This document shows, piece after piece, positions 8,281 through 62,287 of a stretch of DNA of 64,000 bases. The translations under genes were made by a program, and so were the position numbers. Source of the stretch: Diphasiastrum complanatum (lineage: Eukaryota > Streptophyta > Lycopodiopsida > Lycopodiales > Lycopodiaceae); contig CM055111.1 of the NCBI GenBank assembly GCA_029204225.1, positions 28,044,340 to 28,108,339 on the forward strand, read 5' to 3'. Numbering within the stretch: position 1 is the first letter of the stretch; each line of letters begins with the position of its first letter. Below the pieces are notes generated by a model. The model saw only the letters and a program-made list of their open reading frames with translations. It did not search any database and was not told the DNA's origin.

Positions 8281-8488
8281 TTTTGATGTGAAATCCAACT
8301 TTCTTCGAATAACACAGTCCGTATTTCTTTCGTTTCCTGGAGATATTGTAGTACTTTCTTTGCCAACTTCCAATGTATCAATCCTGGGATCTGATTATAT
8401 TGGCTCAGCCTATATACTACAAATGCTATATCAGGTCTGGTGTTGTTTGCTAGATATAACAATGATCCAATCAGCCTACGATAGGCAT
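8281..8488 (-). pseudogene. Copia-1 RT/RNase H junction, downstream of the MITE
   Basis: The minus strand encodes the region that links RT to RNase H in copia elements: AYRRLIGSLLYL, TRPDIAFVV, LSQY and HWKLAKKVLQYL. These match the usual YRxxIGSLLYLxxxTRPDI pattern. The frame runs into unrelated sequence at its 3' end, next to the LTR fragment, so the RNase H catalytic part is gone. The upstream side is cut exactly at the MITE. Confidence 0.8.
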
Positions 8489-8859
8489 TAGAGGAGTTTT
8501 GATTTCCAAAAAGACCCTTTAAGAATTTGTGCAAGAGGTCTTTTTTATTATTAAAATATTATAACACTAATACTTTTGACTTGCCATAACTTTTTAATAG
8601 TAGCTCAGAAGTATGTCACGTAACATATCATTGAAAGCCCTTGTTGAGCGCTTTCCAATGCACAAAACTCCGCTAAATTTGGACATACCACTAAAAAGTT
8701 ATGTCATTTTTAGTATGAAATCAAAATGTGGACTCAAAAAGTTACGTTACGTAGATTTCAAATTTGAGTGTTTTGATTGGTCCATGTGTAAGAAACATTT
8801 GAGAAAAAATATAAAAAGAATCTTTACAAAGGGTCTTTTTTGGATTTAGAACTCCTCTA
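8489..8859. mobile_element. MITE inserted in copia-1 (family with TTAGAGGAGTT ends)
   Basis: A 367-bp core (8491-8857) has terminal inverted repeats of about 30 bp: the left end GAGGAGTTTTGATTTCCAAA and the complement of the right end GAGGAGTTCTAAATCCAAAA both run on to a GACCCTTT block. TA is present on both sides (8489-8490 and 8858-8859), consistent with a 2-bp target duplication, though the outward TTA/TAA symmetry leaves 2 or 3 bp open. It cleanly splits the copia reading between MAKTP and NAYRRL. It has no coding capacity. A related end occurs at 11314, just upstream of the RAG1-like gene. Confidence 0.8.
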
Positions 8860-8860
8860 A

Positions 8861-9684
8861 TGGTGTTTTGGCCATTCGTTCTTCTTCCATGAGAGTCTGC
8901 GGACAATCTGCCTTGCTCAGTATTGTTCCAGATATCATGGGAGTATGCACACCTTTGCATTCGAGCATGTTGAAGTCTTCAATGATCTTTTGAGTGTACT
9001 TTTGTTGGCGAAGATACAATTTACCACCTTCAAAGTCTCTCACAATTTGCAAGCCTAGATATATTTTAGTTTCTCCTAGGTCAGCGATCTCAAATATTTC
9101 AGAAATGTCTCTTTTGACATCTGAAATTAACTTACCTCTTCTTGAGAAGATAAGCGTGTCATCAACATAGACAGCTAGAATGATTATTTCATTTTGGACA
9201 TGCTTGATATAGACATTTGATTCAGCAAATGGAGGTTTGAAGCCTAAGGAACGTAGTGATTTGTCCTTTCTATACCATTGTCTCGCTGCCTATTTGAGAC
9301 CATAAATGGTTTTATTCATGTGACATCCATATTCTGGATATTCTTGGCTTACATAACCAAGTGGTTGTCCATGAATAAGTCTTCTTCTAATTCTACGTGC
9401 AAGAAAGCAGTTTTCTCATCCACAATATGGATTTTCAAATCATGAGCCACTGCATACACAAATAACAAACGAATTGATGTATGTTTGACTATCGATGAGA
9501 AAGTATCAGTGTAGTCAATCCCATACTTTTGTGAAAATCCTTTAGCAACCAACCTTGCCTTGTATCTGATGTTTTCTCCATCATGACCTATTTTGATCTT
9601 ATAGATCCACTTGCATTTGACTGGTTTTCTACCATCAGGTATAGGTGCAAGTGTCCATGCATTGTTCTTGTACATGGATGACAT
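8861..9684 (-). pseudogene. Copia-1 reverse transcriptase
   Basis: The minus strand carries NNAWTLAPIPDGRKPVKCKW, YKARLVAKGFSQKYGIDYTD, a KIHIVDEKTAFLHVELEED block (copia QxDVxxAFLxG region, here degenerate), and, further on, IVRDFEGGKLYLRQQKYTQK and NMLECKGVHTPM. The YVDD region is in poor sequence between about 9050 and 9350, where stops interrupt the frame. The domain order and spacing fit copia RT. It is not functional. Confidence 0.8.
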
Positions 9685-10387: not shown

Positions 10388-11310
10388 TCAGATCAGACAA
10401 CAACTAGCAAATAGATTCATCAAACAGAATCGCATTGGCTAAAGATTCTTATTAATCAAACACAGAGAATTAGTTCTTATCGCGGGAAGCAAACAGAACA
10501 GAGCATCAAACAAGTTCATTATCTGAACACATAGCTCATTCAGAATTGAAAGAAGTTCTGCTTAAGGTTATTCTTAACAGCTTTGGCTAATTCCCTGCAC
10601 ACATTAGTCAAAATTGTTGCTCACTGGTGACGCCTGAAAATCCGTGTTAGAGTGGCTGAAATTCAGTAAAACATGAGAAATATGTGTGACGCAAACACAA
10701 CAATACCACAAACAGTTACAGATCATATAGAGTGTATTCGCTCAATTGATAAGAAGTAATGTTGTAAAAGATGACAGAGGGAAAGTATGCTCAAGTTTAT
10801 AGAAACTTGCTCTTCTCTCTCTATTGATACTCAGATCTATGCAAATGCATAAGTACAATGGCACGAAGTGTCAACCTTATAGGAATGATCACCGACCTCA
10901 ATGTCGTTTACCAACCGTCAAAATGTCGGTTGAGATCCACTACTGTGTCTCTATAGAACGTCACAAATTCTAGCCTAAATGTGAATTTACAAAGTGCAAA
11001 TAGGCCTTTACATGAATTTAGACACTATAGCACATTTACATGTATAAAAATTAAAAAAATTTACAATATATAACAATAACTTGGATAATGTGGGATCCAG
11101 CTGTGCAGCGGCTCGCAAACAATTTGCTTACATTCTTCTCTGTCGCTTCCTTTGTTGGCTGGCTTGCTATGAAAAATAGTCTTAGCTCGGGCTTCGTTTT
11201 CTTCATTAACTTGCTCTAAGGTCATTTCTTTTGTAGCAAAGTAATAATTATTCTTCTGGTTGTAATCTTCCTGGAATGATAGATTCGGATATCCTCCTAT
11301 TCCTTGACAT
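10388..11310 (-). other. LTR-like DNA and 3' coding tail, possibly of the nested gypsy
   Basis: About 10390-11065 is non-coding, AT-rich and contains a sequence resembling that at 36090-37200 only loosely. On the minus strand about 80 codons are open from about 11300 to 11066, ending at a stop, with sequence including YYFATKEMTLEQVNEENEA and a short Cys/His stretch CEPLHSW. By position it could be the C-terminal tail plus 3' LTR of the gypsy fragment now at 16363-17890, cut by the transposase element. I cannot assign the peptide to a family. Confidence 0.3.
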
Positions 11311-11313
11311 TAG

Positions 11314-11360
11314 AGGAGTTCTCACTATCAAAAATACCCTCTAAGGAATGCCATGTAGGA
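11314..11360 (+). repeat. Element terminus related to the MITE ends
   Basis: TTAGAGGAGTTCTCACTATC, followed by an AAAAATACCCTCTAAGGAAT stretch, aligns with both ends of the MITE at 8489-8859 (shared TTAGAGGAGTT, then an A-run, then ACCCTnTAAG). It points toward the transposase-like gene that starts about 760 bp downstream, so it may be the left terminus of that element. No matching right terminus was found near 14.5 or 16.4 kb. Confidence 0.5.
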
Positions 11361-12119
11361 TATAGAAAAATATCAAAATAAAAAAAACAATATTGTTTAT
11401 TTGCTTGCCCACACCACTCCCAAGGCCCCCCCAACTCCCAATGATCTAACAACGGTGTCTATAGTCATAGTTAAGAACTATTAACAGTTCGGTATATAAC
11501 TTGACTAAATTCAAAAATATTCCCTCCATTGGTTACAAAAAGGGAATATTTTCATTGGATCTTGAATATGACCGCCATCCCCAAATTCGAATCAGAAAAA
11601 AATGCAAAATATTTACATATGCATTCCTTCCACGAGAATGGAAATATGAGCGCCAACTACCTATTGGAATGAGAAAATGAGTGGCATTTCCAAATTTGAA
11701 TCAAGCATACAAGCATGGAGATTGGATTGATCGTACATAGTATATAATATAATCAAATATGAGTATTTTGTTTTGCTTCATAGAATCTGGTCATAGTACT
11801 TTGATGCAACTGATTACTCTATTATTTTTTTGATGATGACATTATATCATTTACATGTGGATATCCCTATTGATTTGGCACCTTTGCAGAGAAGAGGAGG
11901 CAAAGGAATTTAAATATCTGCTGGGGATCATTCTCGTTACAAGGCAGAAGGAAAAAAAAACTTGGATTTATGGATAGATGGAACATTACATCCACAAGAT
12001 CCAAGCACTTTGACACATCCCACATTCTCTTCAATAACTCATTTAGTTACATGGATATGCAATGGGCTAGATTACTAGGATATTGTGAAAGATTGCAGAA
12101 CCATGGAAAATAACTTTAC
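11361..12119. other. Non-coding leader before the transposase-like gene
   Basis: AT-rich sequence with no sustained open frame. It includes a small inverted repeat around AATATTCCCTCC and GGGAATATTT (about 11516-11562). It may hold the promoter and 5' UTR of the following gene; no clear TATA box could be chosen among many AT-rich runs. Confidence 0.35.
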
Positions 12120-14479
12120 ATGAATAAAGTTCACTTTTTAGAAGGTGAGGTAATTCGGATATCCTCTTATTGTCAGAATAGAGATTGTCATCTCCAAAAG
12201 ATGTTAGAAGAAAATGAACAACTTAAAAAAAATAATGAATCATTACAGAAGATAAAAATCAATATCAAATCAGAACTAGAGCAAATGCAATCAGTCTTAC
12301 AGTCTATTCGTATTGAAAACTTACAATTATTGAAGGATGTGGATTTGGCAAAGAAGAAGGCTGAAAGTAAGAAGCGAAAGTGACAAAGTTGCAAGGATAT
12401 TCAAACGCTTTCAAAAGGAGGTTATCGAAATAGAAGGATTCGTGCATTCAAGTAAGCATATTCTGAATTTTGGAAGTTTTTCAATGACATTTGGATTTAA
12501 TTTCAGCTACGGTGATATTCTGTTAACTATTTGGTTTTTTTGAAGATCTGCATTAGTAGCTCCTCGGAATATTAAAGACAATGCTTCACTAGGAATGTCA
12601 TTGGGCACAATATTGACTTGCAAATCCATTGAGCATATCATGATGAACATTAGGATTTCAAATGTAAAGTGTAAAATAGCAGAGTCTTTGATGGTGGACA
12701 TTCAAAAAATTTTAGATAGGACTATAGTTTAGGGTGCTTGTGATTTTGCAAGTATTAGCAGAGAAGCATATGCAACAATATCTAAACTAATTAGAGAAGT
12801 TTTTAAGCAAGTTCAAATTAGAAAAGTCCCAATCCCTAGAACATATCACTTGAAGAAAGAGAGGGATACATTAAACATAGGTATGCATAAGATAACTGGA
12901 ACTCCATTTCATATTGAGGAGGTGTATGAAACTGATGGAAGATCGATATTCTATAATTCATCAAACAATTTATTTGTTGATCTATGATTACTTGCTGAGA
13001 TACATCGTCACATTCTATGATATAACCTATGAAAAGGTGAATGGAAAAATAATCATAGTACTTAAGTTAGATGAGTCAGAAATTGTGAAAGGGCAGAAGA
13101 TGGAGAGGGTTAGTATAACTCTCATGAATGGTGCTCTATCACAAATAGAGAACCAAGAAGATTTCAGATTCAGTGTCCACTCAGAAAATGATATATGGTG
13201 GTTGGCAGCGTTTCAGGTAACTAGCCTCATTATTACATTACATTCATTGAATAGTATTAATACATTGTAAACTAAGTCTGCTTAATTCTTTGGACAGGTG
13301 CTGAAAGAGGATCATGATATATTATCATGGATATTCTCAAGGACATCTTATCCTAGGATCATCAAGGACCATATGGATGGAGGACTTCTCAATGTTCCAG
13401 GAGTTGGAGACTTCAATGTTGAATGGCACTTAGCAGGTGATTTGAAAACATTGAAATGTATGTATAATGTCTCTCACGGTGCTACATCAAAACACCCTTG
13501 TTTGAACTGCATGAAAATGGCAAAAGAAGTAACTAGGAGTACATGAATTACTAGAGAATATGCGGATCCAAACTGGAAGGCCTGTGCTGCCTATCCCCTT
13601 AAAAAATGTGCATGTTTGCACTCTTCATGTAGAAGTTAGATTAATAGAAAAGATCATTTATCTTCATATAGTTTTTGCTTGGAATACTAAGCCAGCATCA
13701 ATAGCAAAGGAAGCTATCTCTCGATTAGAAGATGTTTTATCAAAAGCAGAACTCCATAAAGGACATGTCAAAATTCAGAAAGATGAAAAGCTTTTAGGAA
13801 AGAATGGGAACATGCCAACTAAGCCAAGCATAGGAGGAGCAAAAGCATGTCGTTTTCTATCAAATCATACTGGTAAGGCTTCTTATATTCAACACTCAGT
13901 CTGGACAGATATATTGCTGCCACTCAGGATTTTGAGAAAGACGGCAAAACCAGAGTACTAAAAGTTGATGTATGGAAAAAGCTTGATAGTATGATTGCTA
14001 TTTTAAGAAAAGAAAAATACTCTGATATTGATAAGAAAGCTGTCCAAAGGACTTGTGTCGAGTTTGTTAATGCAGTATCAAAAGCATGGGGAGAAGATCA
14101 CATCACTCATTACATGGTTAGTATAAAATTTTCAAAATGCTTTCAAATTTTCATATATATTTAGATCCAAACATAAGACTAACATTATGATTTTGACATA
14201 TGCAGCACATTCTAAGAGATCATTACAACATTTTTTGCAAATACATATGGAAGCTTGAGTGTATGGTCATCACAAGGGATGGAGAAGTCACACTGGCAAG
14301 CACGAGCAACATTTCATCGAAATACACAAAATAGAGGAACCAATGAAAAACGAAACTACATTTGTCAATTGTTTCAGTGGTTCTACCGTAGAGTTCAGAT
14401 TCAACATATAACAAAGTCCACACAATACAACAAGTTTAGAAAAGCATGCAAGTTCATACAGAAAGAGAAAATCAAATGA
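12120..14479 (+). pseudogene. RAG1/Transib-like DDE transposase relic
   Basis: It begins with a coiled coil (about 87 codons, Lys/Glu/Gln heptads, basic end KKKAESKKRK). After an intron (12452-12559) comes a region with ISREAYATISKLIREVFKQ. The catalytic-type blocks follow: KLDESEIVKG (Asp codon 13070-13072) before RVSITLM; an 81-bp GT-AG phase-0 intron (13217-13297); EDHDILSWIF; GDLKTLKCMYN with CLNC zinc cysteines; VCTLHVEVRLIEK; KNGNMPTKP; another intron (14117-14205); and YGSLSVWSSQGMEKSHWQ (Glu codon 14282-14284). This order mirrors the RAG1 core as I remember it: SCDGMG, VRFSFT, DESDHETL, EKLVxEVEGL with CTLC, ALHCDIGNA, GSIGAWASEGNESGNK. The acid expected near LHCD is Glu here. At least four frameshifts and one stop make this copy dead. 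A different RNase H-fold transposase family with the same layout is the main alternative. Confidence 0.62.
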
Positions 14480-14599
14480 TTGATAAGTAGAAAATCATCA
14501 TTGTCATCAAATCATGACATGTTCAGAATTGCTTTGCAAATTCATTGAACATCCAATGTAAATGTATTGATTGTATTATACCAAAATACAAAGTGTCAA

Positions 14600-16359
14600 C
14601 TATTCATCATCAGATCTTGTATCAGATTCTATGGCAGTATTGTCATGAAGAAATTCTCTGCTAGCGTACGCATATAATAGATGTGCACTATCCTTATTTC
14701 CACTAAGCTCAATATAAGTGGAATACAATGAATAATGGGAGCTCCTTAAAGGAACATTCCCATCAGTAAAGCCTAAAATGTTTAAAACGTAAGATCTTTT
14801 GACAAAAATGATCTTATTCGTCTTAACAAATTTATGTCCTCCTAGGTAAAATGATAAAACTTTAACTGCCATTATAAGACTCTCCCCGACTGGGCTCAGC
14901 TTGGAATGAGCAATACAGATCTCATTCTTTAGGAAATGCCTAAGATAGTGGCCCAGTCCACTGTCCCTCTGGAACGAGGATGCATGTTGTCTGAAACCAC
15001 CTCGTCTCGCAGCAAAATCATCTGTTATGAGAGCATCTTGCAATAAGAAATATGTTAGCAAAAACACATTCAGTGATTGAAAACATTCAAATGCAAGGAA
15101 GATTAAACACTTACACATTCTTCATCATTAGCAGCAACCAGATCAGGATGATCAATATAACCACGTACCGAAGTGGAATAATAAGTGAAATGCATTAATG
15201 ATGGACGAGGGAAGCCCATCTGGGATTGAAATGCCGTGAATTCTTCATCGGATACTCCGCCTCGCCCATCCTCAGCTATATTTGATAAAGTCTTATTCAG
15301 ACATTCTTCACCGGTCATAAGTCCCTCCTCATCATCAAAATCAATACCAGCAACAAGGTCATCTGTTTCAAAATCTACAAAGTCGGAGAATTTGGAAATT
15401 GTGCCGGATAATAAACATAGAACCTCGTCCTCACGATAGTCAAAAAAATTTACATAAATCAGCAGTAGTAAAATATACATTGTCATTAATATAATATACA
15501 GACAAATTGAAAAGACATTTTGACTCCTCCATAGATTTGGATTCATCATCAGATGTATTTTGGCCAATGAAAGAATCCAGGAGAACATCAGTATTTACAT
15601 CAATAAAGTCACTATCCTTATCAGGAGTGTCGATAAGAAAGTGACCGATATCCTTAATAGCTGACTGAACAGAGCATGGTGCAAAAGGAGGGTCAGCAAC
15701 AGAAACTTCATCATCATCTGAAATATGAACTAACATGAAAAATACGAAACCACTCTGAAATTTAACCAATCGACATTTCTTGTTGCAATATGGACATATT
15801 GAATTGCTTTTGAAAAGATTAAACAATTTGGTGAACATTCTCTCCAGTCTATGTCTGAAAGCTGGGAAGAAATGAACAAGATCAGTATAATGCATGTACT
15901 GGAGTGGACCTATGGAGAAAACAGGCTTACTAAGTATATATCTGAATCTGACATAATGGTCATAAAATACATCAGAATTTGGTGGTGCAGTCCTGAAAAC
16001 ATGTAGATATGGCCTGAATAGACTGTGAAAATAGTCTAGATTTTTAGAAATCCCAAATTCACTAAGAAATGAACTCAAGTCTGAATCTCGTGAGGATGAT
16101 GAGGAAGTAAAAGAAGGTAATCCATTCTACACTGGAGTTCTGGACTACAAAAAGGTGAGAGAAAAATTGTTAGTTCTTGCTGGAATGTTTGAAATTTTGT
16201 CTTTAGTAGTGAATACACTATCTTGTTCTTCCTTGCGACAGCTCCACTGTCTGATGCCTCAGCTTGCTGTGGAGTAATATTTAGCATTGCTGGTTGGTCT
16301 GCAACAGCTGTGACACTGATTGTTTTTATCTTCATAGCATCCTCGGGGTCAGTCTGCAT
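14600..16359 (-). pseudogene. Unrecognised multi-exon gene converging on the RAG1-like gene
   Basis: Four coding blocks read on the minus strand. The first (16359 to about 16080) begins with Met and has AVARKNKIVYSLLKTKF. The second (about 16120-15530) has a Ser-rich start, FRPYLHVFRTAPPNSDVFYD, a single CPYCNKKC zinc-type motif, and acidic ISDDDEV. The third (15440-15115) is acidic, with GLMTGEECLNKTLSNIAED. The fourth (15036 to the stop at 14600) has DSGLGHYLRHFLKNEICIAH and ends SDTRSDDE. A GTAAGT donor at 15114 and a TTGCAAG acceptor at 15037 bound a plausible 78-nt intron, although the phase is off by one, suggesting a small indel. The stop lies about 120 bp from that of the opposite gene. 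I recognise no family: no kelch repeats, PHD finger, RT or integrase motifs. Confidence 0.5.
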
Positions 16360-16362
16360 CTC

Positions 16363-17890
16363 TTAATCTTTTTGGATTTGCTTGAAGATGATGTCTGTCT
16401 GAATGGCCTTCCTACCCGAAAGATCAGGTTTATTCACTAAATGTTTCAATGCGTATTGATCTACGTGAAAAACAAAAGGGTATCCTAAAAGATAATGTCT
16501 AAATTTCTTTACTGAATAAATCATTCCTAGTGCTTCTCGCTCTATAGTGGAATAGTTCTTTTCTGATGCAACGAGTTGCCTACCCGCATAATACATTGGG
16601 TTATCTACATTTTGGACATCTTTCTGACTAAGCACTACACCTATTGCAAACGATGATGTATCTAAATATACATGGAACTTTTTTGCCCAATTTGGAGGTC
16701 TAACTCTAGTGGCTTCTGCTAATGACTGTTTTAACTGATCAAAAGCTTGCTGATGGTCCTGTAACCAATGGTACTCAACAGATTTTTTTTAATAAACTTG
16801 TTAAAGGAGTTACTACTATGGCATAATCCTTAATTATCCTACGATAATAACCTACGTGTCCTAGAAAACCTCTAAGCTCTTGTAGATTAGTTGGTTCTAA
16901 TAACTCTAAAATCAATTTTACTTTTTTGATGTCGGCTTGTATACCATCCTTCAAAATTTTATGTCCTAACAGGATGCCTTCCCTCATCCCGAAGTAACAC
17001 TTGGCTGGATGCAATTTAAGAGATGTCTCTTGACATATTCTTAATGTTTTCTCTAATGCGTCTAGATGGTCTTTAGTTGATGAATAGACACAAAAGTCAT
17101 GAAAGAAAATTTCTAAAAAATTCCTTGAAAAAATATTGAAAAATATTTGTCATCATACATTGGAATGTGGCAGGTGCATTACAAAGACCAAAGGGCGTTC
17201 GCGTATACACGTACGTCCCCCAATTAGTGGTGAAAGTGGTCTTGGATCTATCTTCCTCTTTTATAAAAACTTGGTTATAACCTGAGAATCCATCTAAAAA
17301 GCTATAACGTTCATGACCAACTACCTAGTCAAGAATAGTATCTGTATACAACAGAGGATGATAATCCTTTGTTGTAGCAGCATTTAGTTTTCTAAAATCA
17401 TGGCAAACTCTAATCTTGCCCGTCTTCTTCGTAGGTACTATAACTATTGGTGACACCCACTCACTGCTTAGAACATGATATATAATACCCGCTCTAAGAC
17501 ATCTATCTAATTCGTCTTTAACTAACAAGGAGTACTTTGGATTCAATCTATATTGGAGCTGCCTAACAAGTATTGTTCCCTGAATAAGTTCTATTCTATA
17601 TTTGCCCCATTTAACTGGTATCCCTATTAAATCATCCATCGACCAAGCAAATATGTTTTGGTATTTTTGAAGAAGTAATATATACTCTTCACGATCCTGG
17701 TCCGATTGGTGTTTATATAAATTCAAAATTTTACCTTTATTAATTTCTATTTCTACATAATCTGTTTTATCTACCATCCCTTTGGTCAGGCTTGCTCTGG
17801 TTCCACCCAGAACTTCCCTTGACTCGGATGTTGTTGGTATTTTCTCATCCTCGTCAATCTCATAGCATTTTATGAAATTGATCCGCAAAT
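16363..17890 (-). pseudogene. Ty3/gypsy pol fragment (RT to RNase H) nested in copia-1
   Basis: Minus-strand blocks in order: NIFAWSMDDLIGIP, the priming segment with LDRCLRAGIIYHVLSSEWVS, PIVIVPTKKTGKIRVCHDFR (RT start), a region with stops that still reads FGLCNAPATFQ, HPAKCYFGM and LRGFLGHVGYYRRII, then RNase H with VVLSQKD, EKNYSTIEREALGMIYSVKK and FRHYLLGYPF. The catalytic YxDD box falls in the stop-riddled part near 17100. The 5' side joins copia-1 integrase sequence directly, so gag, protease and 5' LTR are absent. It ends at RNase H, where the unrecognised convergent gene begins. Confidence 0.85.
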
Positions 17891-18590
17891 TTGCTGAAGT
17901 CATCAATAAACGTAATGAAGTACTTTGCATCACCCAATGACAATATTCTGAATGGTCCACAAATATCTGAATGCACAATTTCAAGTACCTTAGTTGCTTT
18001 ACAAACATTCTTACTAAAAGATGTTCTAGTCATCTTGCCCTTAAGACAAGATTCGCAGGTAGTTCAAATATCTCTACTTTTGATTTCGACTCCTTGAATT
18101 CTCTTACTTTTATTGGCTTGGTACAAGGCTTCCATGTTCATATGACATAGCCTTTTGTGCCACAATACATTTGTTGATTCCTGAGTTTGATTGACTTGTT
18201 CGATTCTTGTTCAAATGTTCAGTTGATACAAATTTCCTTCTCTGCTACCTTTAGCAGTCGGGTTATCAAAATCTTCCTCGAATAGTCTACAAGAGTTCTT
18301 TATGAAGGTTACTGACATGCTTGTATCAACTATCTTAGCTACAGACAGAAGATCTTTATCAAGAGTAGGGACATAAAGGACTTCCTCCAATTTCTTGTCA
18401 CCCTGATTCGTGTCTAGCCATAATACACCAGTTCCATCAACCACGTGTTTAGAACCATCTACAAGTATAATGTATCTCGAATCGTTTGTCTTCTTGTAGT
18501 CAGACAAAATTTGTTTCGAGGAAACAAAATGTGAGGTGGCTCCCGAATCAAGTACTACTTCTCGAATTGAATTAGATTAACAACATGGAT
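17891..18590 (-). pseudogene. Copia-1 protease and N-terminal integrase
   Basis: The protease active site VVLDSGATSHF is intact on the minus strand near 18545. It is followed by LEEVLYVPTLDKDLLSVAKI, the usual protease/GAG-preintegrase link, and GNLYQLNI. Further down the strand come KATKVLEIVHSDICGPF and KYFITFIDDFSKFA, the start of the integrase core with its first catalytic Asp (HSD) and second (IDD). The sequence is then cut by the gypsy insertion. Stops lie between the blocks. Confidence 0.8.
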
Positions 18591-24184: not shown

Positions 24185-24820
24185 CTAGGCATTTTGTTGT
24201 TTTTTCAAGATCTGTGATTTTATAATCTGACTCTTTGTGTCTTTGATCAACATTAAGGAGTTTCCTATCATCAGCGAATCATCCATGAAAATGGTCAGTA
24301 TCACAAAATCCTTTCCTACTCTTTTGATATAGACATTATAGTCTAGTTGAGTAGGATTGAAATCTAGAGACTTCAGAAGACTATCAAGCTTTTTGTACCA
24401 GACTCGTGATGCATGTTTTAGACCGTAGATGCATCTCTGTAATTGACAAACATATTGTCTGTTGTCGGGGTCTTCATAGCCTTCTGGTTGCTTCATGAAA
24501 ATTTTTTCCTCTAGATCTCCATGGAGAAAGGCTGTTTTCACGTCAATCTGGTGAATTTTCAGATTGTAATGTGTGGCGTATGCAAGAAGCAGCCTTATGC
24601 TTGTCATCTTGACCATGGACGAACATGTGTCAAAATAGTCGACACCATATCTTTGCATGTAGCCCTTTGCGACAAGCCTTGCTTTGTAGCGGCCAATGGT
24701 GCCATCTGATTTCAGCTTTTTCTTGTACACCCACTTGCAGTCGACTACTTTTCTATTTTTTGGCAGTGGCTCTAATGTCCATGCCTCGTTTCGTCTCATC
24801 GACTCAATCTCTTCTGACAT
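24185..24820 (-). pseudogene. Copia-2 reverse transcriptase (N-terminal two thirds)
   Basis: An uninterrupted frame with NEAWTLEPLPKNRKVVDCKW, YKARLVAKGYMQRYGVDYFD, KIHQIDVKTAFLHGDLEEKI (first catalytic Asp in QIDVKTAFLHG), EGYEDPDNRQYVCQLQRCIY and VWYKKLDSLLKS, reaching ILTIFMDDSLMIG, where the YVDD box is FMDD. It ends in sequence unrelated to RT at the deletion junction with the 3' LTR, so the RT thumb and RNase H are missing. Confidence 0.88.
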
Positions 24821-25081
24821 TGCCTGTTTTCAGAATTCTCCCTCTAGACTCTAAATCGCTTCTTGGTATGTTGTTGGCTCTTCTATGAAGCTGCAGTACT
24901 CAAACTACATGTCTTCACTCCATTGAAGATTGTCAGAATAGCGGTCTGGAGGTCTTCTTTGTTTCATTGACCTTCTAGGTTCGTTTCGTCGCTTCTCAAG
25001 CATTTCTTGTTTAAGGGGTTGATCCTTTGTTTTCTGCTGCTTTGGAGTCTGGGGTCCTGCATTTTGATTTGATGTCTGTTC

Positions 25082-25964
25082 TCAATCTCCCTCTTGAATA
25101 GGCAACAATGTGAAGATCTCATGGCCTCTTTCGTCTTTCAGTCCAGGGAATGTGATCTTGTCGAACTTTACATCTCTGTTCGAAACAACCTTCTTTGTGG
25201 TTGGATCATAGAGTCTGTACACATGTGTTCCGTTTGAGTAGCCGACCATGATTGTTTGCTCGGATTTGTCGTCGAGCTTGCTTCTCTTTTTCTTTGAAAT
25301 GTGCTTGTATGCTGCACATCCAAACACTCGTGCGTATGACAGATCAGGATTTCTGCCTGTCCACATTTCATATGGTGTTTTGTTCTCCAGCGCTATCATT
25401 ATAGTTCTGTTCTTCAGGTGTACAGCTGCAGCTATTGCCTCGGTCCAGAATTGGCCTGACAATTGAGCCTGTGCTATTATGCATCTAGCTCTTTCGACTA
25501 ACGTTCTATTTTTTCTTTCTGCCACACCGTTGTATTTTGGTGTGTATGCAGGAGTGAACTAGTGTTCAATCGTCTGTTTTTCGTAGAATCTTGAGAATTC
25601 TGTGCTTTTGTATTTACCTCCATTGTCAGATCTAAGGATCTGTTATCCTTTTTGAGGTGTGTCGCTCTGCGAATGCCATGAACTTCTTGAAAGAATCCAA
25701 TACTTCGGATTTCTTCTTCAAGTAGTAGATCATGGTCATTCGACTATAATCATCTATGAACGTTAGAAAATATCTCGAACCTGAGAGCGGATCTATTTTC
25801 ATCGATCCACACACGTCAGAGTGGACAAGCTCAAGAACTTTCGTGGCTCTTCTTCCTTCGTGTGTGAATGGATTCCGATGTTGCTTGCCTTTCTGACGAG
25901 CTTTGCAGAACTCAGCCTCGGGCCTTGATATTTTGAGACCTGTGACAATGTCCTTTGTGCTCAT
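25082..25964 (-). pseudogene. Copia-2 integrase
   Basis: Two frames joined by a stop region at about 25530-25630. The upstream one has FCKARQKGKQHRNPF, KVLELVHSDVCGSMK (first Asp), YFLTFIDDYSRMTMIYYLKK and SFKKFMAFAERHT. The downstream one has AERKNRTLVERARCII (catalytic Glu), GQFWTEAIAAAVHLKNR, TPYEMWTGRNPDLSYARVFG and TIMVGYSNGTHVYRLYDP. This is the usual copia integrase order. The segment with the second core Asp (SDNGG region) lies in the interrupted part. Confidence 0.87.
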
Positions 25965-27103
25965 GTGTACAGGCTCCGCATGTTTAGATGATACATTCTC
26001 CTATGCCAGAGCTGATCTTCATTTTTTGAAGCATTTAATATGCTATCAAAGTTGCTGATTATTTTGGCCTGGTAGAGGTTTCCTTCTCTACATCTGACAG
26101 TCAGCAACTTGTTTGTTGTCTTCTCGATCATACGACAAGTGTTTCCATCGAACAAAACTCGAATGCCTAGATCTGCCATCTTGGAGACAAATAGTAGATC
26201 CTTTCTAAGTGAGGGCACATAGAGTGCTCCTGGCAGTTTTGCTTGGCCTGACAGTGTTCGTAGCTGTAGAGAGTCGATGCCCTTGACATTGTGTCTGCTT
26301 CCATAGCCTAGAATCACCGCTCTGTCGTTTTTGAGTTTGCAAAAGTTGATCAAGAAATTCTTGTTGCAAGTTATGTGAGATGTTGCTCCTGAATTGATGA
26401 CCACATCGTAGTCATGTTTGGAGTATCTTGTCGAAGCTTCGTCGAGTATCGTGAAAGCTTCATCACCTCTTTTTGCATCTTTAGATGATTCTACAATGTT
26501 TGCCTTTTCAGCTTTGTTTTTTCTTTTTGAGTTGAATCTGCAGTCGTATGTAGAATGTCCTTTCTTCTTGCAATGCATGCAAGATATTGTTGGATTGAAC
26601 CAGCATTTGTTGGCCATATGGCCTGGTTTGTGATAATGATTGCAAGAAGAAGATTGTTGATTCGAGGACTTCGTCTTCTCGAATCTTGGCTTGTTTTTGT
26701 TCTTCTTCTTTCCTTTTGTGAAGAGAGCCTTTTTTTGATCACTGCTTCCCTCTCCTTCATCTCTCATCAGTCTCTCATCAGCCACAAGACTGACTGCTTT
26801 GTCAAATGTCATATCTGATAGACTCAGTATGAGCATTCTCAGCGGCTGATAGGACGTCGATAGAGATTTCATGAAGCACATCAGTTGCTGTGGTGCTGGG
26901 ACCTGGTGTTCCTGTCCTGATGTAGCGAGTTGAGTGAATATCATTCTGATCTTCTCAATGTGCTGATCCAGCTGGTTGACATCCCACCGTATTGATTGCA
27001 ACTGATTGTGAAGGTGCATGACTGAAGCTGCAGTCCTCACTTCATACTTCTGCTTTAATCTTTTCCATGCTGCATGGCTGCTTTCGTAGTCTTCAATCTG
27101 CAT
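25961..27103 (-). pseudogene. Copia-2 gag-protease
   Basis: A 380-codon open frame. Gag is UBN2-type (AAWKRLKQKYEVRTAASVMH, QLQSIRWDVNQLDQHIEKIR). Two knuckles follow: CNHYHKPGHMANKC, where the second Cys is His, and CMHCKKKGHSTYDC, which is canonical. The protease triplet is VINSGATSHIT: the catalytic Asp of DSG is Asn, so this copy cannot be an active aspartic protease. It ends with LPGALYVPSLRKDLLFVSKM and the preintegrase block LWHRRMYHLNMRSL. The true gag start is upstream, where the sequence to 27300 is broken by stops. Confidence 0.88.
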
Positions 27104-27371
27104 GAGTAGATCTTCATTTATGGATGAAACGATGATCGCTCATCCTTTCTGAAACATTCAACTCTCCTCAGGTCTCCCTCTGGAGGCTGCACCTCTGAGA
27201 GCTCGGTCACCGACCAGATGCCTTCGTCCTTCAGGAGTGTTTTGATTTTGAATTTCTAGATTCTGTAATTTGCGCCATCGAGACTGATTGCTACTCTGGT
27301 CTAGATTGTCATAGCCATATTATGTTGTCTAGAAGAATCATTGTTGGGATATCAATATTGACAACCTGTTG

Positions 27372-46330: not shown

Positions 46331-47660
46331 TACTTGTAAAGTCGGCTACCATTGATGGGTGTATCAAATGGCGTCCCATCAAGTTGTTCAAGGTTCGGCT
46401 CCATGGCTTCGGATTTTCTTGACTTGGTATGGGCCTTCACCTATGAACTTTAAATTTTCCTTGATCGCCTCGGTTTTATACATGAGGGCTAGATCTCCAG
46501 ATCGAAGATCCTTCTTGTGTATAACCGACGATCGTGCCATGCTTTGCATCATGCCTTCTCAACTGTCAATGCATGCAAAGCTAATAAGCGTGTTTCACAA
46601 AGTTTTTTTAATGCTTTATGGTGCAATTGTAGAGATTTGGACTCATCAAGGTGTTGTGTTGTGACAACTCACAATGAAGGTACCAGAAACTCCACTGACA
46701 TTACTGCATCTTGACCATAAATTAGTTGAAATGGCGTTTGATCAGTGCTTCCCTTTTATGTTGTCTTGAATGCCCATGCCTGAATGCCCACAACGCAGCA
46801 TATAACTTTTGCTCCCAATCAGATCTGCTAGCCTAACTATTTTCATGATAACGCTACATAGGATCTTGTTGTTGGATGATTCTGCTTGCCCATTACCACA
46901 TGGATAATAAGGTGTGATGAATTGATGGATCACGAAGTATGGATGCAATAGATTATAATTAAATCTTGTTGGCCTCCTAGCTCGTTGGCACACATCACAT
47001 TTCCTCAAGTATTCCTCTGTGTCTTTATGAATCGTTGGCCACCAACATCCTGATTGCAAGATCTTTCGAACTGTAATGTTAGATGAAAAGTGATCGCCAC
47101 TCATGCCTTCATCAGATAATGACATAATTTGAGTGGCCTCATATGGGAGAATACATCTTTGAAGAATACTATCTGCTCCTCTTCGATAAAGTTGGCCAAC
47201 AATCAACTGATACTTTCGTTGTTCTGCCTTCAGTAGTTATTTATCCCATTGGCCCCACATAAGATACTCAACTATGTCAACAGCCCATTCGGGTATTGTA
47301 TCAATGTAAAATAAGACAACATCAAGAAGCTCATCATCATGATGGGTTGTACTTTCTTTCCCTTTAATTCGTGACACATAGCTTGCATTGATAATAACTC
47401 TTTTTCTAGGCTTGGAAGGTTTGGCCTGTTTCCTCCTCCTTTCAAGGATGAGCCTTCTCTCTGCCAGTGGTGGCATGTGGTAAGACCACTCCTGAAAACT
47501 TGGTCGTATGTATTTTCCAGCATCATGACAAGGTGCGTGTCCGACAACATAAGCATAACTCTCTTGGCATGCATTGTGCAAAGGGTTGAGTCCTCAAAAA
47601 ACTTGACTTGGAAGTCCTCATAAGCTATATGAAGGGCTTCCAAGGCTGTGATGTTCTAGC
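46331..47660 (-). pseudogene. Gypsy-B integrase remnant
   Basis: On the minus strand a zinc-binding domain reads GDHFSSNITVRKILQSGCWW, HKDTEEYLRKCDVCQRARRP (HHCC type). The core is internally deleted and rejoins at ITPYYPCGNGQAESSNNKIL, which includes the catalytic Glu of the GQAE box, then TPFQLIYGQDAVMSVEF and a decayed C-terminus to about 46330. Upstream (47237-47660) lies a frame with EWSYHMPPLAERRLI and a basic linker, consistent with the RNase H-integrase connection. The first two catalytic Asp positions are lost. Confidence 0.75.
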
Positions 47661-49259: not shown

Positions 49260-50515
49260 GATCAAGCATCGATCTTGAGATAAGACCAAGATTAGATCTA
49301 TGATTTGAGAAGGCACTTTTGCAAAGTGGCTTTGTGAGAAGATCAGCAATACATGAAGATGTGTTGACATGTTCCAAGTTGATTTCACCTCAGCTTTTTC
49401 CTTACAAAATGGTGTGCCACTTCTATATGCTTGCTTCTTGCATGAAAAATAGGATTGTTTGCAAGAGCTTGGGCCGATATGTTGTCACACTTGATCAAGG
49501 GAAGATCATCCTCTTTCATGCCCTTTAGCTCCATGATTAACCTCTTGATCCAAAGCACCTCTTTAGTTGTTGTAGTGAGTGCTTTGTACTCGGCCTCACA
49601 AGAAGATAGAGATATGGTATCTTGCTTCTTTGAAAGCCAAGACACAAGATTGCCTCCAAGAAAGATAGTATATGCATTAATGGACTTTCGATCCATTTTA
49701 TCACTTGCAAAATCGGAATCCGAATAGCCAACAATGGTTAGATCTTCATTCTTGTACAAAAAACCATAATCTTGAGTAGAGGATACATATCTTAGAACTC
49801 TCTTGGTCATCTTCCAATGTTGGATCTTAGGATCTTGCATAGATTGACTCAATTTGTGCACACAATAGCTCAAATTGGGTCTAGTGATAGTAAGCCAAAT
49901 TAAGGAGCCTATAAGACTCCTATAAAGTGTGATGTCGTCAAAGGATCTTTCATCACCTTCTCCATGGGAGTATCTATGCCTTTACAATTTTGCATATTGA
50001 ATTTTCTCAACATAGAAAAGACATATCTATTGACAAATAAAAGCATATTCTTCATGAAAATCAATCTCAAGGCCTAAAATGTAATGGATCTCTCCTAGAT
50101 CTTGCATTTTAAATTCTCCTCCTAATGCATCCTTAGTTTCTTGAACTAGCATCAAACAACTTCCACTAAAAATAATGTCATCTACATAGATTAGAAGAAT
50201 GACAATATTACTACCATCAAACTTTAAGTAAATAGAAGGATCATGGTCACTAAGCACAAATCCTAATGAAAGTAGAAAGTTGTTGAGTCTTGAATACCAT
50301 GATCTAGGTGCTTGCTTCAAGCCATAAAGACTTCTAAATAGCAAACACACCTTAGATTTTATCCTTGATGAATCCTTGAGGTTGTTCCATGTATATCTCC
50401 TCCTCAAGATAGCCATTCAAAAAAGCGTTGGAGACATCAAGTTGATACAATTTCCACTTAAAAAATAAGGCAAGAGAGATTGTGATTCTTATTGTCACCA
50501 TCTTTGCTGCAGGAG
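49260..50515 (-). pseudogene. Copia-6 reverse transcriptase and RNase H
   Basis: Minus-strand order: YQLDVSNAFLNGYLEEEIYM (first RT Asp), CLLFRSLYGLKQAPRSWYSR, IVILLIYVDDIIFSG (YVDD intact), EFKMQDLGEIHYILGLEI, then after a stop-rich gap MSYCVHKLSQSMQDPKIQHW, DLTIVGYSDSDFASD (RNase H Asp), SLSSCEAEYKAL (Glu), KCDNISAQALANNPIFHARS (Asp) and KHIEVAHHFVR, ending with SSCIADLLTKPL. RNase H is in one clean frame. Integrase is absent upstream. This is the best preserved copia pol end in the window. Confidence 0.9.
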
Positions 50516-59596: not shown

Positions 59597-60770
59597 CAAC
59601 TTGGTAAATTGATAGACAAAGGATTCATTAGACCCAGTGCTTCGCCTTTTGGAGCCCCAGTGTTATTCGTGGAAAAGGCGGAACAAGACACTGCGGATGT
59701 GTGTGGATTACTGCATGCTCAACAAAGGTACCATCAAGGACAAGTATCCCATGCCTAGAATTGATGACCTGTTCGACCAGCTCAAACATGCCAAATATTT
59801 TAGCCGAATAGATCTCAGATCTGGATATCACCAAATTCAAATAGCTAAAGGCGATGAGCACAAAATGGCTTTTCGAACACGGTCTAACAAATGCACCAAC
59901 CACTTTTTGCACGTTGATGAAAAACATTTTTTAAGACTGCTTAGATGATTTTGTCATTGTGTACATTTGTCATTGTGTACATCGACGACATCTTGGTGTT
60001 TAATCGTAGCCTCAAAGATCACATTAAACATTTAAGGACGGTCCTCCAACGACTGAGGAAGAACAGCTTGTTCGCGAAAAGACAAAAATGTGAATTTGTG
60101 GTAGAGGAAGTTGACTTCCTTGGACATGTTATAGGCTACGGACGAATTCGGATGGATCCTAAGAAGATCAAGACTATCTTGGATTGGCTGGCTCCTAAAA
60201 CTGTTCATGGCATCAAATCCTTTGTGGGCTTATGTAACTTTTACAGGAGATTCATTGAGGCATTTAGCAAAATTGTGGCACCACTGTTGGAGCAGACCAA
60301 GACTCATCTGAAGATGACATGGACACCGGAATGTGAAGCAGCATTCCAAGAACTAAAACGACGGATCACTCAAGAACCCATCCTTGCCTTACCGGACTTT
60401 AGTAAACCTTTCAAAATACATACAGACGCGTTGAACTTTGCTATTGGGGCCGTGCTGATGCAAGATGGAAAACCTATTGCATATTTTTCAAAGAAATTGA
60501 GTGACATAGAGCGACGATGGAAAAGAAATGGTCGCAGTAGTTCAAGCAGTGGAGCATTGGAGACATTATGTGGCAGGAAAACCCTTTAAGACATTCACTG
60601 ATAATGTATCACTCAAGTACTTCTCACCCCAAGGTATGCTTACGCCAAAGCAAATGCGATGGCTAAACTTTCTCTCAAAATTCAATATAGATATTGTACA
60701 CACGGCGGGAAAGAACAATGTGGTGGTGGACGCACTAAGTAGACAGGAACACTTGGTGGCAATGGTGACA
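59597..60770 (+). pseudogene. Chromovirus reverse transcriptase and RNase H
   Basis: Blocks in order: [60 protein letters not shown], then a deletion of the FGLxNAPxTFQ segment (about 59890-59945), then IVYIDDILVFNRSLKDHIKH (YIDD intact), FLGHVIGYGRIRMDPKKIKT, FVGLCNFYRRFIEAFSKIVA. RNase H follows with KIHTDALNFAIGAVLMQDGK and, in another frame from 60528, HWRHYVAGKPFKTFTDNVSL and KFNIDIVHTAGKNNVVVDAL. The residue equivalent to the RNase H Glu lies at the frameshift near 60515. Confidence 0.88.
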
Positions 60771-62287
60771 ACTCAGATGACTGGCCTACTCCAAGAGATT
60801 AGAGAGAATTATGGTGCAGATGCGTTAGCGAAGGACTTAATGATCGAATTCCAACTGGGAAAGCCTCATAAACATTTCACTTGGAAAGATCAAATGGTTG
60901 TTTATAAACAACGCAGAATATATGTCCTAGACAACATCAACCTGAGGAAGAAAGTCTTGCAAGAACATCATGACGTACTAGTCGTCGGACATCCAGGGGT
61001 GAATCACATGCATGAACTTCTCAAAAGAGGCTTCTATTGGCCAGGTATGTGGGCAGACAATCATATGTGCAAACATGCCCGACATGTCAACAAGTGAAGG
61101 TGGAACCGCTAGCTCCAACAGGACTATTCCAACCATTACTGATACCAGCATACCCATGGGATTTGGTGAGCATGGATTATATTGTTCAACTACCACGGTG
61201 CCAAGGCTTCGACTCAATTTATGTGGTGGTTGACCACTTTTCAAAGCAAGTTCACCTGGTACCAACTAAAAGTTTAGTGACAGCTGAAGAAGTGGCAAGG
61301 TTATTTTTAAAATGTGTCTTCAAATACCATGGCCTACCTAGAACAATTATTTCTGACCGAGACACCAAGTTCGTCGAAAAGTTTTGGACTTGTCTATTTC
61401 ACCTCGTGGGAGCTGGACTGAATTTCAGCACTGCATATCACCCTCAAACAGATGGGCAAACGGAACGAGTCAATCGACAGATTGAACAATATTTAGGAAA
61501 TTATGTCGCTTGGGACCAATCCGATTGGGTCAACTACTTGGATATTCTTGAGTTTGCACATAACAACCAAGTGAATAGATCTACTGGACGGGCACCCTTC
61601 GAGATAAGCAATGGTTGGCTACCGATTGTTCCAAGTTCTTTTCTTACAGGTGTGCAAGAAACCCCAGTACCCACTGTGGAGGAACTCATCAATGAGTGGC
61701 ACACAAAGCTGACAGAGGTGAAGTCATTTTTAGAGCAGTCCCAAAGAAGTATGGCAGTTGACGTAAACCCACATCGACGAGAACTGGAATTTGAGGAAGG
61801 TGATCAAGTGTGGCTGAACACAAAGAACATTGCGTTACCAAAAGTTTTCTCTCATAAGTTCGTTCGACCTTATGCGGGGCCATATTATATCACCAAGAAG
61901 ATCAACCCAGTGGCTTACCGATTGGTGCTGCCATCCAGCTTGGATATACACAATGTATTTCACATCTCATTACTCAAACGGTACAAACCAGATGAGCGAT
62001 TTGATCGGCAACACAAACTCCGTCACCCACCAATGACACTTGATGATACAAAGAGGCAGCTTCTACCAGAACAAATATTGACACATAAAAAGCAAACTGG
62101 CGTGCAACGTGAATATCTAGTGAAGTGGCTACGGGCTCCACTCATTGAGGCTTCTTGGGAGTACGAAGACAAACTTAAGGAGAGAGCCCCTGAAGTACTG
62201 GCAAATTATCTGCAGAAGAATCAACGCAATAGCCGTTTTCCCAGATCGGCACACAAAGCACTACCTGGTGGCATGCCTCCTGCATAA
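60771..62287 (+). pseudogene. Chromovirus integrase with chromodomain
   Basis: The HHCC zinc region spans the frameshift near 61060: GHPGVNHMHELLKRGFYWPG, then QTCPTCQQVK. The core from 61037 has DLVSMDYIVQLP (Asp), TIISDRDTKFVEKFW (Asp) and YHPQTDGQTERVN (Glu), so all three catalytic residues are present. The C-terminal part has AHNNQVNRSTGRAPFEI, a GDQVWLNTKNI block and the GPYYITKKINPVAYRL link. The last 60 residues (about 340-395 of this frame) form a chromodomain with ILTHKKQTGVQREYLVKWL and ASWEYEDKL, which in this lineage tethers integration to chromatin. This 416-codon frame is intact to its stop. Confidence 0.92.

Follow-up and report, generated by a model that had tools for sequence, protein, structure and literature searches.

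A 64,000-nucleotide stretch of the Diphasiastrum complanatum genome (GenBank assembly GCA_029204225.1, contig CM055111.1, positions 28,044,340 to 28,108,339; hereafter the window) contains, at 11308..16107 on the + strand, a truncated copy of a DNA transposon that very probably represents a high-copy family, moves by cut and paste and encodes a transposase with a RAG1/Transib catalytic core. That a transposase related to Transib/RAG1, or belonging to a sister family, once moved in this lineage had been proposed from the letters of the window (the sequence-only reading), and the proposal is supported by the predicted fold, the active-site and zinc residues, the terminal inverted repeats (TIRs), the copy number and the presence of miniature inverted-repeat transposable elements (MITEs). 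The sister-family half of the proposal fits better, with the 5-bp target-site duplication (TSD) absent and a TIR that begins with CATTAG, not CAC. Vertebrate V(D)J recombination derives from RAG-like transposons. An abundant and apparently plant branch that has the whole RAG1 active site, yet scarcely duplicates its target, would provide an outgroup for asking how the 5-bp stagger is set and what in the core is ancestral.

The RAG1-like blocks, with their GT-AG introns, were all found on the + strand within the previously proposed span of 12120..14479. That span proved too narrow for the element, which has an N-terminal transposase module at 11839-12069, a left end at 11308 and a convergent gene extending to 16107. 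With a composite window protein (X at its breaks) as query, 63 proteins out of 1,319 candidates matched at E<=0.001 (best 7.1e-123), and tblastn aligned these relatives block after block along the window stretch; the conserved blocks are therefore not due to chance. A profile made from 28 of the 63 relatives (A1) gave 51 matches at E<=0.01 and a separate C-terminal query gave 13, and 110 distinct proteins were collected in total. In the long relatives P0065 (898 amino acids, carrying ITPYMHILKVHGPYFAKEGSLAIWSTQGMERSHWQ) and P0068 (900 amino acids) the series of blocks is present from the N-terminal module through to the last. The transposon family apparently has a plant host, which fits the only two relatives bearing an organism name, P0059 and P0094, both from the fern Adiantum nelumboides. 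These two predicted proteins join transposase pieces to PF25070 (DUF7794) and PF03492, probably through gene annotation that ran across a transposon.

The sequence-only reading had suggested comparing a predicted fold with the RAG1 core, and models of the relatives indeed match this fold over RAG1 residues 459-1008. RAG1 and Transib rows ranked well above other DDE matches in the structure comparison and spanned the whole core, with about 13-16% identity in the structural alignment to RAG1. The fold evidence consists of predicted models, which are weak in the C-terminal domain; model 1, thin in alignment depth there, gave way to model 2. In a profile comparison with RAG1, also suggested earlier, hhalign against the single mouse RAG1 core aligned the last block with a score of 28.0 (maximum of 40 shuffles 23.2; reversed 18.2), while a second alignment, placing ERVSITLMN...KEDHGIL on AVRFSFTVMK...ESDHETL in the correct order, was weaker and not above shuffles (score 17.5).

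Mouse RAG1 numbering was computed (D600 in CDGMG, E662 in LADESD, D708 in GTGYD, C727/C730 in ICTLC, H795 in DALHC, H937/H942, and E962 in EGNES), and the equivalents in P0065 are taken as D411, E464, D508, C528/C531, H591, H761/H766 and E785. The active site of amphioxus BbeRAG1L is described as D701, E764, D811, H894 and E1063 (PMC7204232). D411 follows strand 403-410 in model 1, and D508 comes directly after strand 497-507. The distance from the second D to CxxC is 20 residues in P0065 versus 19 in RAG1, and that from the second H to E is 19 versus 20. Conservation was counted in alignment A4 over rows with a letter at the column: the first D is present in 30/31, the E662-type E in 37/37, the second D in 41/41, the two cysteines in 39/41 and 40/41, the H795-type H in 43/43 and the final E in 15/17. 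At the H761 column H is found in 15/50 rows and V in 33/50, and at the H766 column H is found in 15/40, counts that include non-H letters read as translated intron from open reading frames (ORFs) running into GT after ATG. Together, A4 and the RAG1 numbering uphold the earlier equation of the first-block Asp with D600 and of the last-block Glu with E962. The companion claim, that one catalytic Asp is replaced by Glu, does not stand, as the Glu block corresponds to E662 (LADE662SDHETL), a position at which RAG1 likewise has Glu, and D708 is matched by the intact D of GDLKTLK. Assignment of DESDHETL as the D708 block is ruled out by the RAG1 numbering and by the strand order of the models (497-507, then D508).

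All five active-site residues (D, E, D, H, E) are present in the window copy. Tblastn of relatives against the window shows the transposase gene reaching upstream to 11839, where a conserved N-terminal module (LWIDGTLHPQDP..., 11839..12069, +) was matched by P0016, P0020, P0064, P0065, P0067 and P0068. The open frame at 12114..12380 (+) probably encodes a coiled coil: its Pfam matches are all sub-threshold, several being of coiled-coil type, and the predicted model of a relative has long helices at residues 83-157. A pre-core stretch (12544..12984, +) follows, and P0060 is 93.5% identical to window 12337-12984. The exon at 12986..13216 (+) carries the first catalytic Asp (LDE within KLDES, 13070-13072, equivalent to D600) together with QKMERVSITLMN, and the exon at 13298..13543 (+) carries the E of LKEDHD (13307-13309, E662), the Asp of AGDLK in GDLKTLK (13439-13441, D708) and the CxxC of PCLNC (first C 13499-13501, C727/C730). 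The stretch at 13578..14116 (+) includes CTLHV, with its H at 13626-13628 (H795), and a helical insertion region; KNGNMP has its first N at 13803-13805, and a frame shift occurs near 13913. The last exon (14206..14476, +) contains HILRDH (first H 14206-14208), equivalent to the H937/H942 zinc pair, and the catalytic Glu of SQGMEKS within SSQGMEKSHW (14282-14284, E962). Two GT-AG introns are readable, at ~13217-13297 and ~14117-14205. Open frames on the + strand run from 12114-12380, 12544-12729, 12733-12984, 12896-13267, 13286-13543, 13533-13958, 13877-14161 and 14216-14476. The window copy is dead, given the in-frame stops at 12730 and 13544, several frame shifts and the loss of its right part.

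The left TIR (11308..11342, +) is ~35 bp long and begins CATTAGAGGAG; on the right, other copies end in the reverse complement of this repeat, with 28-36 bp agreeing at 97-100% (CATTAGAGGAGTTCTCAATATCAAAAAGACCC...). The ends read show the CATTAGAGGAG start with few variants. The genome to which the window belongs (1.745 Gb, 5,176 contigs) was searched with a 32-nt TIR pattern allowing <=2 mismatches, yielding 990+1,034 = 2,024 sites compared with 0+0 for the control. A search with one transposase exon returned 7,559 first-look candidates, and all 150 places scored were matches at 93-100% identity (E<=2.1e-51), 16/150 having an internal stop. The window gene is one of very many copies, not the lone relic that it had been taken for.

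Twenty genomic copies were fetched, four of which were extended on the right. Where copies retain the left end it coincides with window 11308, and eleven left flanks, those of the window and of ten copies, lose their similarity immediately ahead of CATTAG. Similarity of the copies to the window ends at 16107 at the latest; beyond this point other copies still agree among themselves and the window copy is no longer similar. Right ends were read in L009, L012, L013, L016 and L025. Self-comparison of the window found no TIR pair above shuffles because the right end of its copy is lost. Four convergent TIR pairs were picked among the first 100 sites listed, three lying 8.1, 9.5 and 9.4 kb apart and one 2.6 kb apart; the last (pair D, C1:47.86 Mb) was rejected as a simple insertion, since its left flank lies within another copy and its right flank is discontinuous. 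Two of the fetched copies, L019 and L020, both on contig C2, share 8.2 kb at 99.7% identity, either through segmental duplication in the recent past or through duplication in the assembly.

A non-autonomous relative, a 377-bp MITE with both TIRs, is inserted in a copia gene of the window (8486..8862, +). Of 3,623 first-look candidates for this MITE, 40 genomic places were scored and all 40, one being the window MITE itself, were at least 95% identical. With copies and MITEs this nearly identical, both mechanism and activity can be put to the test.

Target sites were read from the window MITE and 39 fetched MITE copies (L042-L080, 95-96% identical to it); of these 40 sites, 8 repeated other sites and were dropped, leaving 32 independent sites. 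The flanks matched exactly at the ends by 0 bp at 16 sites, 1 bp at 10, 2 bp at 2 and 3 bp at 4, with no match of 4 bp or more, whereas permuted flank pairs give expectations of 22.5, 6.7, 1.8 and 0.8, respectively. A 5-bp duplication was found at 0/32 independent sites. There is no fixed TSD, and insertion mostly occurs without duplication. The larger copies A, C, L016 and L025 likewise have an end match of at most 1 bp.

Each of the three empty sites open to testing (3/3) indicates that no base was duplicated or lost. At the window MITE the joined flanks keep the copia frame open (...EERMAKTPYRRLIGSLLYLANNTRPDIAF...); the g/g end match allows a duplication of 1 bp at most, which would shift the copia frame. 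Compared with the copia copy in L016, these joined flanks are gapless (34% identity, one stop). The distant copia copies of L011 and L021 have a length difference of 2-3 residues beside the junction, so the argument here is one of frame and not of exact length. For L016 the joined flanks align with L013 (195 columns, 85%), for L025 with L023 (148 columns, 74%), and no gap falls at either junction. An excess of T was observed 3 bp from the junction on both sides (37/64, nominal p 7e-6 for one position out of ten tested). It was first noticed in the first 20 sites fetched; the second batch alone (13 independent sites) gave 14/26 (p 0.012). A dyad with its centre at the junction is in keeping with a stagger close to zero.

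These data are compatible with a model in which a transposase dimer would pair both TIRs and cut them by two-metal chemistry at D/D/E, aided by the E662 and H795 equivalents and perhaps proceeding through hairpins, as RAG does. Both 3′ ends would then be joined to nearly opposite phosphates, such that repair leaves no duplication. We file the family as a RAG1-fold lineage of the CMCT kind, unusual in its integration and cargo. Whether it constitutes a new RAG1-fold lineage of superfamily rank, abundant in a plant genome, with blunt strand transfer, its own H3 variant and a convergent second gene, we regard as evenly balanced.

Several observations weigh against the RAG1/Transib assignment and the duplication-free mode of insertion. 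No Pfam transposase family matches the window pieces, and none, RAG1/Transib included, appears in the tables inspected for the relatives (one of which covers 25/53 families, 53 members); two profile searches of PDB sequences returned no RAG1 chain, and the hhalign probability against RAG1 is only 2.9-6.3%. Taken by itself, the amino acid sequence does not reach RAG1 convincingly. The part of the model that holds the catalytic Glu (781-808) has low confidence, so the assembled triad is not seen in the coordinates. End matches of 3 bp (4/32 versus 0.8 expected) and of 1 bp (10 versus 6.7) are commoner than chance, and the larger copy pair B ends tca/tca; short duplications may accompany a minority of insertions, and the 3-bp excess beside duplication-free empty sites possibly reflects two insertion modes. 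CACTA elements share the same motifs and had no structure among the comparison rows, which limits the reading of closest kinship.

The foremost alternative, which we consider possible though distinctly the less probable, is that this is a divergent CACTA/EnSpm (CMC) element and not a branch close to Transib/RAG, the motifs being shared and presumably the fold as well. CxxC, H(4)H and CA..TG are all present here, and EnSpm families with 3-bp TSDs have been described, in keeping with the four sites that match by 3 bp; however, the other 28/32 sites lack such a match, and no CACTA-type Pfam family was present in the full tables inspected at E<=1 or E<=10. The wider CMCT clade (EnSpm/CACTA, Mirage, Chapaev, Plavaka, ESTA and Lanisha, the last named in PMC12730594) similarly has C(2)C and H(3-4)H between the second D and E and CA..TG termini, but is described with TSDs of 2-5 bp, whereas here 26/32 sites match by 0 or 1 bp.

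It is unlikely that the missing duplications arise artefactually, through wrongly placed ends or ends drawn from different insertions. Pair D, not being a simple insertion, and the L011/L021 length differences beside the window MITE junction would be in line with such an error, but the eleven left flanks diverge just before CATTAG, the MITE holds both ends within 377 bp, the joined L016 and L025 flanks align to empty paralogues with no gap at the junction, and those of the window MITE preserve a copia frame that a 1-bp duplication would shift.

A true Transib or RAG-like (RAGL) element whose visible target duplications were lost by age is slightly harder still to accept. RAGL and Transib elements have 5-bp TSDs and termini beginning with CAC that resemble recombination signal sequences (PMC7204232, PMC4411706), and Transibs encode the transposase alone (PMC4411706). 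The present family resembles RAG1 and RAGL (amphioxus ProtoRAG) in predicted fold, D/E/D/H/E, C(2)C and H(4)H, TIRs and a convergent second gene. It departs from them in its low structural identity, the lack of a Pfam or PDB sequence match, the CATTAG terminus, 0/32 5-bp matches with 3/3 empty sites rejoining cleanly, a second gene without a relative detected by sequence, RAG2 included (Pfam, PDB), H3-like cargo and a plant-like host; unlike Transib, it also carries extra genes. Finally, P element and ISCth4 were also among the matches in two structure comparisons and Hermes in one of these, though not in the 50 rows of the other, but it is very improbable that the resemblance to RAG1 is a general RNase H-fold likeness of the kind common to hAT, P and further DDE transposases, as the RAG1/Transib rows stand well above these with the whole core covered, and conservation extends to C(2)C, H(4)H and the H795 equivalent.

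The RAG1-fold family has precedents for its separate peculiarities. Spy (PHIS superfamily) is also a cut-and-paste transposon without target duplications (PMC4482050), but it favours AAATTT and is kin of Harbinger/ISL2EU, whereas here the enzyme is RAG1-like and the target sites show only an excess of T at distance 3; an AAA/TTT target as in Spy was found at 0/32 MITE sites. RAG-like transposons are described from animals in the literature consulted. No plant family of the RAG1/Transib kind was found in the literature searched by title and abstract start, a coverage with most subscription journals outside it.

The second gene (14603..16107, -), convergent with the transposase, belongs to the repeated element; introns are probable and its 5′ end is lost by truncation. 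The frame of the L028 copy has no Pfam match at E<=1 and no PDB sequence match at E<=10, leaving a RAG2-like identity without support by sequence at these thresholds. Longer copies (L012) have the order transposase, convergent - strand gene, + strand H3-like ORF and two further - strand ORFs, the latter near the right end and without a Pfam match. The H3-like ORF matches Pfam Histone (4e-28) and, as best PDB match, H3.3C (5.6e-24); by sequence it has a core histone fold of H3 type, followed by a long C-terminal extension. In L012 (locus 449-1489, - strand) and other copies the protein has, when aligned to H3.3C, one extra residue in the stretch preceding VRF. The gene is found whole or in part in 12/20 fetched copies, several with stops, and the window copy ends before it. 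When L012 was divided into 400-bp tiles, the core was common to 19 others and the right half to 2-8 others, partly because most fetched stretches end there. In Pyrenophora, too, TIR transposons are described that carry a gene resembling histone H3 along with another ORF of unknown kind (PMC3538342), although those elements are fungal and have a hAT transposase. The H3-like gene suggests that the transposon may bring its own chromatin component, and the accessory proteins may help expression, escape from silencing or target choice.

A second, degraded H3-like frame lies elsewhere in the window (47275-47655, -; Pfam Histone 2.9e-6) and by eye is nearer to ordinary H3 than the H3-like gene of the transposon is. 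The window is repeat-rich, and from the frames, pieces of gypsy-like (16366-18029, 59945-62284) and copia-like (24188-27139, 49388-50416) retrotransposons were recognized by eye.
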